DNA of 41,631 nucleotides from Candidatus Fermentibacterota bacterium (lineage in GTDB: Bacteria; Fermentibacterota; Fermentibacteria; Fermentibacterales; JCC-6). Of this stretch, positions 1 through 3,812 are shown one piece after another. The translations under genes were made by a program, and so were the position numbers. The DNA lies in NCBI GenBank assembly GCA_030609965.1, contig JAUWSQ010000022.1:1-41631 (forward strand), given 5' to 3'. Positions within the stretch are counted from its first letter, which is position 1; every line of letters starts with the position of its first letter. The notes below the pieces were generated by a model. It had not been told where the DNA came from. It made no database searches and saw nothing but the letters and a program-made list of their open reading frames with translations.

Positions 1-93
1 CATATTCGCATCTTCGATTTTGATGAGTTAAGAAAAAAATATGGGATTGCTGAAACTGCCACCCAACAATCGAATCGAGCTGACTTTACTTAG
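1..93 (+). CDS. 3' end of an unidentified gene, probably an integron cassette gene
   Basis: An open frame enters from the left edge and ends at TAG (91-93). The 30 visible residues begin HIRIFDFDELRKKYGI and end SNRADFT. I do not recognise the family. Its last ten or so codons overlap the left arm of the attC-like hairpin that begins at 61, as is usual for integron cassettes, where the gene stops inside or just before attC. It may be the C-terminus of a gene starting outside the window. That the frame is translated is likely but unproven, because so little of it is visible. Confidence 0.5.
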   Translation, partial: HIRIFDFDELRKKYGIAETATQQSNRADFT

Positions 94-132
94 TATTGGT
101 CGAGTTATGAAAGCAGCTCATTCGAAGTGTTA
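61..132 (+). other. attC-like integron recombination site, interrupted by the group II intron (right end resumes at 2054)
   Basis: ACCCAAC (61-67) matches the attC R'' consensus RYYYAAC exactly. GTTA (129-132) joined to GCA (2054-2056) gives an imperfect R' box (consensus GTTRRRY). Between them, TCGAATCGAGCTG (70-82) pairs with CAGCTCATTCGA (114-125), leaving C76 unpaired. CTTT (84-87) pairs with AAAG (110-113), leaving A83 unpaired. Extra bases confined to the left (L'') arm are the known polarity mark of attC and orient the site with the plus-strand genes. Removing the intron restores a site of about 75 nt. The arms conserve pairing rather than sequence, as attC sites do. A covariance-model search would settle it. 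Confidence 0.72.
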
Positions 133-597
133 GTGCGCCAAGCGAAGCTTGGTGCTTCTTATAGGGTGAGCTACTCATTAGGAGTGGCAAGTCCCTGTCG
201 GGCAAAGCCTAACCAGCAGCCCGTATCGAGTGTTGCGCCTGTGGCGGAGCCGGGGTACACGCCGGTGAACAAAACGGGTGAAGCGTACACAGAGAACACT
301 GTAGGCCGCAGGGGAAGCGTACTTCCCTTAAGCGATACAGCCCCGTTAAAGTAATAAGAGCAGTTGGCGACGACTTTAACGCACCGGAAGCCAGTACATA
401 TGAATCGTTATGGTAAGATTCTGAGGAACTGCCGGGGTCATAGAGCGTGGCATGCAGTGAGAGAAGCATCAGGAACTTGGGAGACCCTTCCGCCTCCCGC
501 ATATCGGGTAGGGCATTTCAACCATAAGAAGGATGCCTTATGGGTGGCAAGGGAGTCAGATCATCTCATAGTACTCTGAGACGGTAAGGCCGATCAC

Positions 598-1947
598 ATG
601 GGGAAGGGGATGACGGTATTATGCAACATGCAAAGGAAACATATGCAGATAAGACAGGCTGACAAACATATGCAAACCTCCCTGCGTGGTATAGCAAAGA
701 GAGCAGAGATTTCACCCAAACACCGATTCGGAAACCTCTTCAGTTTACTGAATGAGGAAAATCTTCGCTGGTGTTTTCCGCAGTTGAACAAGAAATCTGC
801 ACCAGGAGTTGATGCTGTTTGCTACGGTACATTTGAAGCCAATCTTGAAGAGAATATTCAGAGGATCGTTGAAGACCACAAGGGGAACAGGTATAAGGCG
901 AAGCTCGTAAGACGCAAGTACATTCCCAAAGCAGGAGGTAAGAAACGACCGCTTGGTATTCCCGCAATTGGTGACAAGGTACTGCAAAAGGCAGTAGCCT
1001 TAATTCTGTCTGCCATCTATGAGGAGGATTTTCTTCCTTGCAGTCATGGTTACAGACGGGGTAAGGGACCTCAACGGGCGGCTCTTGAACTCAGTAAAAC
1101 TCTCCATCGCGGACGGTTCGGATGGGTAGTAGATGCTGACATCAAGGGATTCTTCAATAACATGGATCATGACTGGATGATGAAGATGCTGGAACAGCGT
1201 ATCAATGATAAGCGGTTCCTGGGTCTCATTCGCAAGTGGTTGAAAGCCGGCATACTTGAGGAAGACGGCCAGGTTAAATATCCTGTTACCGGTACACCTC
1301 AGAGCGGAATCATTTCTGCTGTGCTTGCCAACATCTATCTGCACTATGTCATTGATCTCTGGTTTGAGAAAGTCGTTAAACCACGCTGTCGCGGTGAAGC
1401 AATGCTTATGCGTTTCGCCGATGATTTCGTGTGCGCGTTTCGGTACCATGATGACATGAAACGCTTCTACGATGTACTCGGCAAGAGGCTTGGTAAATTC
1501 ACGCTTGAACTCTCATCTGAGAAAACCAGTGTAATCCGGTTTTCCCGGTTTCAGACGGAGAAGAGCAAGGTGTTTACCTTTCTCGGATTTGAATACCGGT
1601 GGGGTTTGAGTCGTTCCGGTAAGCCTCTTGTAAAGATGAGAACATCTAAGGCGAAGCTTCAGATCGCACTTGCCAATATCCGTAAATGGATACGGGTAGA
1701 GCGAAACAAGCACGGAACCGCAGTCATCATGAAGAAACTGCGACTGAAATTGCTTGGACATTGGAATTATTACGGTGTCTCTGGAAATATCAGGATGTTG
1801 AAGGTATACTACTTCAAAGTGTGTAGAATCGTGTTCAAATGGTTGAATCGGCGAAGTCAGCGTAAGAGCTGCAACTGGCACGGGTTCAATGAGATGCTGA
1901 AGCATTTTCAGATACCCGAGCCTCGAATCGTTGGATACTGGGACTGA
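598..1947 (+). CDS. ltrA: Group II intron reverse transcriptase/maturase
   Basis: This 449-residue intron-encoded protein helps the intron RNA splice and copies it into DNA during mobility. RT signatures are in order: an N-terminal block with NKKSAPGVDAV (RT1), RRKYIPKAGGKKRPLGIP (RT2), VVDADIKGFFNNMDHDWM (RT3), TGTPQSGIISAVLANIYL (RT4), and MRFADDFVCAF, where FADD replaces the usual YADD catalytic box (RT5). A maturase/X domain near the C-terminus carries KLLGHWNYYGVSGN. The protein ends EPRIVGYWD with no recognisable HNH endonuclease, so insertion would rely on structured or replicating DNA, consistent with the attC target. The frame is uninterrupted, so the element may be active. ATG 598 is taken as the start, but ATG 610 is possible. 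Other intron RT classes also lack the endonuclease. Confidence 0.93.
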   Translation: MGKGMTVLCNMQRKHMQIRQADKHMQTSLRGIAKRAEISPKHRFGNLFSLLNEENLRWCFPQLNKKSAPGVDAVCYGTFEANLEENIQRIVEDHKGNRYKAKLVRRKYIPKAGGKKRPLGIPAIGDKVLQKAVALILSAIYEEDFLPCSHGYRRGKGPQRAALELSKTLHRGRFGWVVDADIKGFFNNMDHDWMMKMLEQRINDKRFLGLIRKWLKAGILEEDGQVKYPVTGTPQSGIISAVLANIYLHYVIDLWFEKVVKPRCRGEAMLMRFADDFVCAFRYHDDMKRFYDVLGKRLGKFTLELSSEKTSVIRFSRFQTEKSKVFTFLGFEYRWGLSRSGKPLVKMRTSKAKLQIALANIRKWIRVERNKHGTAVIMKKLRLKLLGHWNYYGVSGNIRMLKVYYFKVCRIVFKWLNRRSQRKSCNWHGFNEMLKHFQIPEPRIVGYWD

Positions 1948-1980
1948 TTTATGTTCTTGTACGAAGTGAATAATACCGAG

Positions 1981-2053
1981 GAGCCTTGTGCGATAGTATC
2001 GCATGCAGGGATCTCTGAGGGGGCTGTCGGGTAACTGGCAGTCCTACCTCGAT
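1981..2053 (+). ncRNA. Group II intron domains V and VI
   Basis: Domain V begins GAGCCTTGTGCGA and folds back on TCGCATGCAGGGATC with a two-base UG bulge, matching the bacterial domain V layout and containing the AGC catalytic triad. One pair at the triad appears as a G-A mismatch rather than the usual G-U, which might slow catalysis. Domain VI is a stem starting GAGGGGGCTG and closing with CAGTCCTACCTC; A2046 bulges from the 3' strand as the expected branch point. The intron then ends ...CGAT at 2053. Assignment is by eye. Confidence 0.8.
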
Positions 2054-2069
2054 GCATACAAAGAAGGGA

Positions 2070-2098
2070 TTGACATACAGTATCATTATTGATACTAT
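2070..2098 (+). promoter_or_regulatory. hicAB promoter with overlapping palindromic operator
   Basis: TTGACA (2070-2075), a 17-nt spacer and TACTAT (2093-2098) form a near-consensus sigma-70 promoter. A perfect inverted repeat, AGTATCA-ttat-TGATACT (2079-2096), fills the spacer and overlaps the -10 box. It is a natural site for autorepression by HicB, whose C-terminus is a ribbon-helix-helix. The hicA ATG lies only five bases beyond the -10 box, so transcription would start at or next to the ATG and the mRNA may be leaderless; no Shine-Dalgarno sequence precedes it. The promoter lies wholly inside the cassette, just downstream of the intron, so hicAB need not depend on an integron Pc promoter. 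Confidence 0.75.
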
Positions 2099-2103
2099 AT
2101 TCT

Positions 2104-2364
2104 ATGGTAAAGATAGAGCAGTTGATAAAAAGAATGAAGGATAACCCAAAGGATATCCAATTCTCGGATTTATGCAGGATTTGTAGATACTATTTTGGTG
2201 AACCCAGGCAATCTGGATCAAGTCATCAAGTTTACAAAACACCATGGCAGGGAGACCCGAGAGTGAACATTCAGAATAAGAAAGGCAAAGCAAAAGCCTA
2301 CCAGGTTAGACAAGTTCTTCGAGCCATAGAAAGGTTGAGTGAAGAGAATGCCATTGAAGAATGA
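2104..2364 (+). CDS. hicA: HicA-type mRNA interferase toxin
   Basis: A protein of 86 residues from ATG 2104. The frame also opens at TTG 2089, but that codon lies within the promoter. HicA toxins are small double-stranded-RNA-binding-fold ribonucleases that cut mRNA and are blocked by HicB. The core GSSHQVYKTPWQGDPRVNIQ holds the expected catalytic histidine (about residue 41) followed by beta strands. The tail KAKAYQVRQVLRAIERL matches the C-terminal helix of longer HicA forms. It overlaps hicB by 17 bp, the usual toxin-first order. The pair sits between two attC-like sites, as is common for toxin-antitoxin cassettes in sedentary integrons. The neighbouring hicB raises confidence in a divergent toxin call. 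Confidence 0.87.
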   Translation: MVKIEQLIKRMKDNPKDIQFSDLCRICRYYFGEPRQSGSSHQVYKTPWQGDPRVNIQNKKGKAKAYQVRQVLRAIERLSEENAIEE

Positions 2365-2677
2365 CCATTATACATATCGAGTGACTTGGTCTGAAGAAGA
2401 TCAGGAATATGTTGGTCTATGTACAGAGTTCCCCAGCCTGAGTTGGCTTACCAAAACTCAGGATTCAGCTCTTGAGGGAATAAGACAGCTTGTGGCTGAT
2501 GTTATCTCTGACATGAAGAACAATAAAGAAGAAATACCAATTCCTATTTCAATCAGGAAATACAGCGGAAAGTTTATGGTGCGGATTCCTCCCGAAGTTC
2601 ATCGCAAACTTGCTGAAATTGCAGCAGAAGAGGGAGTGAGTATCAACCGACTGGTAAGTGCAAGACTTGCAAAATAG
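2348..2677 (+). CDS. hicB: HicB-type antitoxin with ribbon-helix-helix domain
   Basis: The start is taken at ATG 2348 (MPLKNDHYTY), downstream of a purine-rich stretch. A GTG at 2339 would add three residues. The N-terminal half (YTYRVTWSEEDQEYVGLCTE, then DSALEGIRQLVADVI) is the partly degraded RNase-H-like fold that binds and neutralises HicA. The C-terminal half (KFMVRIPPEVHRKLAEIAAE, then INRLVSARL) is a ribbon-helix-helix DNA-binding domain, expected to bind the palindrome at 2079-2096 and repress the operon. The gene stops three bases before the second attC-like site, as expected of a cassette gene. Confidence 0.92.
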   Translation: MPLKNDHYTYRVTWSEEDQEYVGLCTEFPSLSWLTKTQDSALEGIRQLVADVISDMKNNKEEIPIPISIRKYSGKFMVRIPPEVHRKLAEIAAEEGVSINRLVSARLAK

Positions 2678-2679
2678 AG

Positions 2680-2759
2680 TGCTAACAACTGCATAAACCA
2701 GCACAAATGCAAACCATGATTCAGAGTAACGCTTGTGCAGGTTATGCAGAACGTTATGC
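2680..2759 (+). other. attC-like integron recombination site closing the hicAB cassette
   Basis: GCTAAC (2681-2686) and GTTATGC (2753-2759) are the outer R''/R' boxes, close to but not exactly RYYYAAC/GTTRRRY. CTGCATAA (2689-2696) pairs with TTATGCAG (2742-2749). A2697 is extrahelical. CC (2698-2699) pairs with GG (2740-2741), A2700 faces A2739, and GCACAA (2701-2706) pairs with TTGTGC (2733-2738). The non-pairing AA/AAC between outer and inner boxes matches the unpaired central spacer, and 2707-2732 is the variable terminal loop. The extra base is again in the left arm, giving the same orientation as the site at 61-132. It starts three bases after the hicB stop. Confidence 0.78.
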
Positions 2760-2777
2760 AGAGAATTAGGAGAGTAA

Positions 2778-3095
2778 ATGGAACGCAAGAAATATGACGC
2801 ATTACTCCTGTTCCCACAGATTGGCGTCTGCGGTCAAAACTGCAAGCACTGCTTTACCAATGCTAAACTTAAGGAGAACAGACCGTTCGAACACGTCAAG
2901 TACATCATTGATGCAATGGCGGAAACCTTTGCTGAGCCTGCGATCACTGAGAAAGCCTTCCTTTACTTCCTTGATGAACTGACTCTTTACCCCCAAGTAA
3001 TAAAGCTTCTTTCCTACTGCAGAGATAAAAACGTTCTCCCGCAGCAGCATCTTCTGGAGCTACAAAACTATCAGCAGCGGTTACAAAATCGTTGA
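2778..3095 (+). pseudogene. Truncated radical-SAM protein (N-terminal third only)
   Basis: The start is ATG 2778, preceded by TAGGAGAG as a ribosome binding site, 18 bases after the second attC-like site, so it may be the gene of the next cassette. CGQNCKHC is a CX3CX2C motif, the [4Fe-4S] ligand set of radical-SAM enzymes, placed early as usual. The frame stops after 105 residues, whereas radical-SAM domains need about 200 or more, so the AdoMet-binding half is missing. The last residues (QQHLLELQNYQQRLQNR) look out of frame. I read it as a broken gene; a short functional cassette protein is less likely. Confidence 0.6.
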
Positions 3096-3165
3096 ATTCT
3101 CATTCGACATCGGGACAGCACTGGAACGCTCCACATGGGGATCTATAAAGGCAGACAGCTATTGA
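3004..3165 (+). pseudogene. Possible 3' fragment of another gene, out of frame with the radical-SAM stub
   Basis: The frame 3004-3165, offset by one from the radical-SAM frame, encodes a plausible C-terminus (GYKIVEFSFDIGTALERSTW then GSIKADSY) ending at TGA 3163-3165. It has no start codon of its own with a ribosome site. Overlap with the end of the radical-SAM frame suggests either a frameshift in one longer gene or a junction between two unrelated gene remnants. No attC-like hairpin was seen after it, so the cassette array may end here. Confidence 0.3.
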
Positions 3166-3224
3166 CGAAAACTGCAGTCTACGGCAAATTACAATCAAAC
3201 CCAATTCTGGAAAGGCACCGGTTC

Positions 3225-3812
3225 ATGAAACTGAAAAACATAGCATTTGTCCTGATGATAGCTTCAGCAGCAACCGTGGCGAAACCATGGAGCAGCGCTT
3301 CGGGCGGGTTGGACATGAGCTACCTGTACTGGGAACATGGTGGAGACTGTGTCTGGGGTTTCCAGTCGGCTTTCGGGCCACGGATAATTGATGATCTCTA
3401 CTTCCGAGTCAAAATAACGATTCCCGCTCCTATATTTATAATTATCGGCAATCAGATCAATATAGGAGGTGAATTTTCCTACCTGCTTCGAAATCCTCAG
3501 GAGGGATTCGCCGTTGAAACCTCACTCGGAGCCGCATGGAGCCTCATGTGGCCCGAGAACATCATAGTGATATTGGCTGACGGAGAGAGTACGACCCCTC
3601 CCAGGGAGTATGCTTATGATGGTGGAAACGGCATAAGGCTGGAAGCTCTGGTAAGCACAGGCTACAAATTCAGTATGGGAGCCCTCTGGCTTGATCTGGG
3701 GGTGGACCACCGTATAATGGACATCACAAGAACTGTTGACGGAGAGAAAGAAGACGGTACTTATACATTCACAGGTCCCCATCTTGGTATAAGCGCCGAT
3801 TTCTATTTCTGA
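3225..3812 (+). CDS. Small outer-membrane beta-barrel-like protein, unknown function
   Basis: I choose ATG 3225 (MKLKNIAFVLMIAS) because a typical signal peptide starts there, with likely cleavage after ATVA and an upstream GAAAGG. The frame is open from 3135, but that extension is charged and overlaps the debris region. The mature part of about 175 residues alternates hydrophobic and polar residues with many Gly and aromatics (INIGGEFSYLLRN, FSMGALWLDLGVDHRI) and ends in a terminal Phe (GISADFYF), a pattern of beta-barrel outer-membrane proteins. It stands alone before a poorly coding stretch. I do not recognise the family. Confidence 0.6.
   Translation: MKLKNIAFVLMIASAATVAKPWSSASGGLDMSYLYWEHGGDCVWGFQSAFGPRIIDDLYFRVKITIPAPIFIIIGNQINIGGEFSYLLRNPQEGFAVETSLGAAWSLMWPENIIVILADGESTTPPREYAYDGGNGIRLEALVSTGYKFSMGALWLDLGVDHRIMDITRTVDGEKEDGTYTFTGPHLGISADFYF

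Follow-up and report, generated by a model that had tools for sequence, protein, structure and literature searches.

The hicAB genes at the start of contig C76 very probably form the final cassette in a chromosomal integron array and carry a promoter of their own, while the attC site ahead of them has been invaded by a group II intron which lies in sense to the cassettes and would have reached its target by EBS1 pairing. The stretch of DNA analysed (the window) comprises 41.6 kb from the start of C76, in a 2.6-Mb genome which is 80.7% complete. Its features are listed in Table 1. Integrons with hicAB are nothing unusual; it is the intron that is noteworthy.

Table 1. Features at the left end of the window, with the data on which each assignment is based.
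Feature	Position	Strand	Basis
Preceding cassette ORF, 3' end	1–93	+	Read directly; open at contig edge; stop codon TAG (91–93) lies inside attC
Left attC site, R'' (CCCAACA) to R' GTTA	61–132	+	Fold and covariance model; interrupted by the intron after GTTA
Group II intron, GTGCG ... CTCGAT	133–2053	+	Sense to cassettes; RNA families, shared 5' ends, intron-free relative L109
EBS1 (TAACGC) in domain 1	377–382	+	Complements GCGTTA-type 5' exon; co-variation with exon
Intron-encoded reverse transcriptase/maturase, 449 aa	598–1947	+	TIGR04416, 326.8 bits, above cut-off
Intron domains D5–D6	1979–2053	+	RF00029, E = 7.8e-4, below gathering score; no attC model match
hicAB cassette (gene part and attC)	2054–2759	+	Matches in 22 of 60 genomes; intron left out of account
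hicAB promoter TTGACA-17-TACTAT	2070–2098	+	Spacing identical in 13 of the 16 loci from relatives
Inverted repeat AGTATCA-TTAT-TGATACT over the −10 element	2079–2096	+	Sequence; kept in most relatives' cassettes
hicA, 86 aa	2104–2364	+	Weak PF07927 match, E = 0.016; structure model
hicB, ribbon-helix-helix antitoxin	2348–2677	+	PF05534, E = 1.2e-14 (computed on 2351–2677)
Right attC site of hicAB	2681–2759	+	Bottom-strand fold and model; last attC found in window

The attC sites on both sides of hicAB

The initial annotation described hicAB as an integron cassette flanked by two attC-like sites. Both sites are real and their folds agree, but the left one is separated from hicAB by the 1921 bp of the intron. 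As the intron reaches to position 2053, the structure directly to the left of 2054 is formed by its domains D5–D6; it had been considered as an attC site and was rejected. The single-strand folds of both sites contain an R box, a short unpaired spacer, an L box and the extrahelical base in the left arm which had been noted before (alignment column 24). The bottom-strand DNA fold has a z-score of −5.37 for the left site and of −3.35 for the right one (MFE −15.1; none of 200 shuffles was as stable). The right site adjoins the 3' end of hicAB: three bases lie between the hicB stop codon, ending at 2677, and R'' (GCTAAC), starting at 2681, exactly as annotated. The reading frame preceding the left site did not give any Pfam match at E ≤ 0.01.

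Fifteen attC sites from this genome and its relatives were aligned (A2), an earlier alignment (A1) being poor and set aside. In A2, 91.6% of the cells are paired (74.5% in shuffles) and 46 cells are changed on both sides of a pair (17.9 in shuffles); neither value was reached by any of 500 shuffles. Nine pairs show changes on both sides, and shifting one arm by a single base makes the pairing collapse. The covariance model built from A2 (R1), which is tuned to the clade and barely detects class 1 attC sites, matched the left site at 58–136 with 64.8 bits and the right site at 2677–2759 with 57.9 bits, both being training sites of R1.

When the whole window was searched with R1, no attC site was found beyond these two. 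Across the genome, R1 detected at least 15 sites with E ≤ 1, of which 13 had values below 0.001; they are spread over at least eight contigs. These counts are lower bounds, as 150 of 489 candidates were scored. Six of the 15 are training sites, and the nine others include three at E ≤ 2e-6. Two further sites were found on contig C79, which was searched directly.

The hicAB cassette in related genomes

The 706-bp hicAB unit had matches in 22 of the 60 genomes searched, its own included. We looked at 16 loci from other genomes with alignments of at least 300 bases. The left edge of homology is at most 14 bases from position 2054 in 14 loci (L116 and L124 are partial), and at the right edge an attC model match is present in 14 of the 16. 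The model also matched at the left edge in six loci (L109, L110, L114, L119, L122, L123); R' is visible by eye in another three (L112, L117, L120), and in L118 the intron is again present. Neither the model nor inspection by eye revealed an attC site at the left edge of L111, L113, L115 and L121. In relative G011 (L109), a similar attC site ending in AGCAGCTCATTCGAAGCATTA is joined without an intron to GCATACAAAGAAGGGATTGACA, the start of hicAB. There, the left edge of the cassette coincides with the crossover at R' of the attC site before it (GTTA|GCATAC), and this intron-free arrangement places the point of intron insertion between GTTA and GCAT. Elsewhere, hicAB occupies different positions, next to different neighbours.

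These data support the view that hicAB is an integron cassette transcribed from a promoter of its own, apparently within a sedentary array on the chromosome. That hicAB is an ordinary chromosomal toxin–antitoxin pair which merely neighbours attC-like hairpins is very improbable: in several genomes the cassette starts from the same left edge behind attC sites that differ from one another, and hicB is followed by an attC match in 14 of the 16 loci, although the four loci without a visible left site, as well as the broken integrase genes described below, would agree with such a view.

The attC sequences 3' of hicAB clearly differ between genomes (L109–L123), as if the body of the site had been exchanged at R''. 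A related hicAB cassette (L054/L118, G027:C61) is bordered by members of the intron family described below at either end: the 3' end of one precedes it, and the attC site behind it contains the 5' end of another.

HicB is identified as the antitoxin by its Pfam match (Table 1). The match of HicA to its family PF07927 is below the cut-off, the best among seven members having an E value of 0.0042. A predicted HicA model (pLDDT 84.7) is nearest to the structures 5yrz, 1whz and 6g26 (Z 5.1–5.2, VIA-align 2), and the titles of 5yrz and 6g26 name toxin–antitoxin or HicAB complexes; a Foldseek search with the model gave no significant HicA match. Among 13 relatives' cassettes (the 16 loci less L115, L116 and L124), hicA is broken by a stop codon or frameshift in seven (L109, L112, L113, L114, L117, L120, L123), where errors in draft genomes are possible, and hicB is free of stop codons in all 13.

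Promoter-type matches as such occur near chance level (three found, 2.2 in shuffles). The promoter, already proposed in the initial annotation, was accepted because it is conserved at identical spacing: a TTGACA-like hexamer, 17 bases, TACTAT, five bases and ATG are kept in the window and in all relatives' loci except L115, L116 and L124, which gave no promoter match. Since this spacing puts the transcription start at about the ATG, the hicA transcript is probably leaderless. The inverted repeat overlapping the −10 element is likely an operator, to which HicB would bind in autoregulation. With its own promoter, hicAB would be independent of the integron promoter and of the upstream content of the array.

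Cassettes with hicAB are known from the integron of Treponema denticola (PMC4909258). There, hicAB likewise lies between attC sites, and the toxin–antitoxin cassettes are the ones with an identifiable promoter. Here the host belongs to a different group and the genes are separated from the left attC site by an intron; the comparison is by description.

A group II intron in sense to the cassettes

The element between the left attC site and hicAB has the conserved D1–D4 and D5–D6 RNA, the GUGYG..AY ends and the reverse transcriptase/maturase of a group II intron. RF02005 matches 188–447 with an E value of 3.2e-34, above the gathering score, and the 5' end is common to many relatives. In the intron-encoded protein (IEP), Pfam detected only RVT_1 and a weak GIIM domain; no endonuclease domain was found. 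The intron follows directly after R' (GTTA|GTGCG), in the top strand of attC and in sense to the cassettes.

Introns without an endonuclease domain that adjoin attC hairpins in cassette arrays are known as group IIC-attC introns, represented by S.ma.I2 (PMC7923331, PMC8876359). They are described as using the bottom strand of attC at R'' (TTGT/T) and lying antisense, whereas the intron described here uses the top strand at R' (GTTA|), lies in sense and encodes a protein outside class C. The class assignment is based on a tree of 23 IEPs, whose class labels rest on an Eubacterium rectale maturase and on class 1 integron contexts. The protein groups with those of L024, L025, L026 and L030 (100/100), apart from six class C sequences (class C split 100/99), to which it is 27–39% identical over partial alignments. 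Three of the class C sequences come from resistance integrons (with blaIMP-4; with VIM-2 and aadA1; with aadA2 and dfrA12), and their ltrA genes run opposite to the cassettes. The comparison with these three introns covers orientation only, a GTG[CT]G candidate being present in one of them (L100). Both the position in the tree and the opposite orientation speak against a common IIC-attC intron of class 1 integrons that happens to be in sense. We give this reading very little credence, even though the missing endonuclease domain and the position behind attC hairpins are typical of such introns and one top-strand IIC case has been reported (PMC7923331). IEP classes D, E and F were considered from motifs; none of them is claimed.

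The target site of the intron lineage

A blast search with the intron yielded 21 distinct 5' junctions. GTT occupies positions −4 to −2 in 19 of these, the exceptions being L046 (GCTA, yet with an attC match) and L047 (TTCG). An attC model match ends at the junction in 14 of the 21, eleven of which are training sites; in L026, L030, L035, L057 and L058, GTT is present and no attC model match was obtained at the junction. L060/L138, with only 33 bases upstream, and L156, with 15, are among the dropped or unreadable rows. Inclusion of four sister introns brings the number with GTT to 23 of 25 junctions.

A second survey was blind to the exon, as it used a pattern within the first 20 bases of the intron (the reversed control gave no matches). 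Within the same phylum it detected 18 sites (42 genomes searched); four genomes of relatives gave 10, and the phylum to which G060 belongs gave 10 further ones (395 genomes searched). GTT at −4 to −2 was found in 17/18, 10/10 and 3/10 of these sites, respectively (30/38 in total), and an attC match abuts the junction in 14/18, 2/10 and 0/10 (16/38). Nine of the 16 attC-abutting junctions are training sites and seven are not (L129, L136, L140, L143, L144, L147, L151). Support for an attC site at the junction is strong within the phylum and weaker beyond it, R1 also being less suited there. As an attC match abuts only 16 of the 38 junctions, introns outside the phylum may target GTTA that follows a different kind of hairpin or no hairpin. 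The RNA fold test upstream of the junctions is weak for several of them, with positive z-scores in L030, L055 and L058, and the arms test supports only part of the junctions.

In Desulfogranum japonicum (G062, the genome of L035), the intron 5' end occurs seven times, always after GTT, which would make this species a good host for testing mobility.

The choice of target is reflected in EBS1. In 16 introns, EBS1 forms a mean of 4.7 out of five Watson–Crick pairs with its own exon, compared with 4.0 with the exons of the others; one mismatch in the five positions occurs in three introns (L065, L046, L067). The EBS1 loop was unreadable in seven of 30 introns (L128, L134, L138, L140, L155, L161, L164). 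The informative cases are four introns at other insertion sites: L033 (exon ATTTCG, EBS1 CGAAA), L036 (TTGTTG, CAACAA), L162 (ATTTAG, CTAAAT) and L156 (TTGAAA, TTTCAA). As the EBS1 changes match the exons at these sites, the pairing predicts the insertion site, and target switching becomes directly testable. Judged by sequence complementarity, the version of EBS1 carried by the attC lineage is the one that fits R'.

EBS1 could in principle suffice for homing to any CGTTA word, in which attC sites are rich, the hairpin then being irrelevant. Introns at non-attC sites with changed EBS1 (L033, L156, L162) and junctions with GTT but without an attC model match (L026, L030, L057, L058) are in line with this. 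Nevertheless we regard it as unlikely, since a five-base word has thousands of chance occurrences per genome, yet 14 of the 18 junctions within the phylum have an attC match (nine of them training sites).

We rather favour, with some reservation, a lineage outside class C which has independently specialized on integrons, its EBS1 reading R' of the top strand. In this lineage, EBS1 (UAACGC) would pair with the 3' edge of attC, which is of the GCGTTA type and consists of the end of L' together with R', the intron would insert after GTTA, and the attC hairpin would probably replace the IBS2 contact. Because the intron is in sense to the cassettes, it could be co-transcribed with them and spliced from read-through transcripts. 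The many junctions with different flanks and the intron-free relative are indirect support, at the level of sequence comparison, for splicing and retromobility. The crossover point of IntI, which we take to be G|TT, lies three bases before the intron, and the intron would therefore be carried along by the integrase as the leading segment of the hicAB cassette.

Relation to other introns in cassette arrays

In a review, attC targeting is restricted to class C and all other lineages are assigned homing sites (PMC4424553). A group IIC intron of Enterobacter cloacae on the attC top strand is cited as the single exception to bottom-strand insertion (cited in PMC7923331). It resembles the present intron in strand and in sense orientation and differs in belonging to class C. 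The same article also mentions non-IIC introns in cassette arrays, namely UHB.I2 and class E fragments of Halorhodospira halochloris (PMC7923331). UHB.I2 is a IIB1 intron of class CL1 which lies in sense just after attC; its ends are UUGCG..GU, compared with GUGCG..AU here. In the H. halochloris fragments the 5' ends are missing. All of these comparisons are by description. The present lineage is a further sense, non-IIC attC case, with many sites and an explanation by EBS1.

If true, a second class reaching attC by EBS1 pairing and in sense would mean that the invasion of integrons evolved more than once. An intron in this orientation could be transcribed and spliced together with the array, and retrohoming and IntI recombination would share a single site in a natural system.

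Integrase genes and genome context

Integron integrase (intI) genes above the curated cut-off were found in 21 of the 60 genomes searched and in none of 14 control genomes. In the genome studied here, the search for intI and additional attC sites suggested by the initial annotation revealed, besides the attC sites on other contigs, an intI fragment on C78 (a 209-aa frame covering profile positions 8–81 and 249–277) and one on C79 (positions 193–252 and 284–313). Both are on the minus strand and cassettes follow on the plus strand. As assembled, these copies look non-functional. No intact intI beside the array, and hence no complete integron, was found in the assembled genome (80.7% complete). 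The chromosomal integron which had been postulated to the left of the contig is thereby supported as far as a seemingly sedentary array with attC sites and intI remnants elsewhere is concerned, but not with respect to an intact integrase gene. C79 might conceivably lie directly upstream of C76. Matches to TIGR02249 on C35, C37 and C80 are far below the cut-off and were rejected as intI; they are taken for ordinary Xer-type recombinases, as judged from score and length only.

A literature search for Fermentibacter and Aegiribacteria, most subscription papers being outside its reach, found no paper on integrons of this group.

About 93 residues precede the integrase match in the C78 remnant (L015:602–1231), and in relatives a large number of the intact intI frames span 400–450 residues, compared with 315 profile positions. 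The integron integrases of this clade may thus possess an N-terminal extension. In G025:C126, intI (2455–3399, minus strand) is on the same strand as an attC site and intron near 205–306, and is not divergent from the cassettes. C79 contains a second, different hicAB pair between attC sites (L014:12334–12929). It lies beside parDE-like and vapBC pairs, in an array rich in toxin–antitoxin cassettes.
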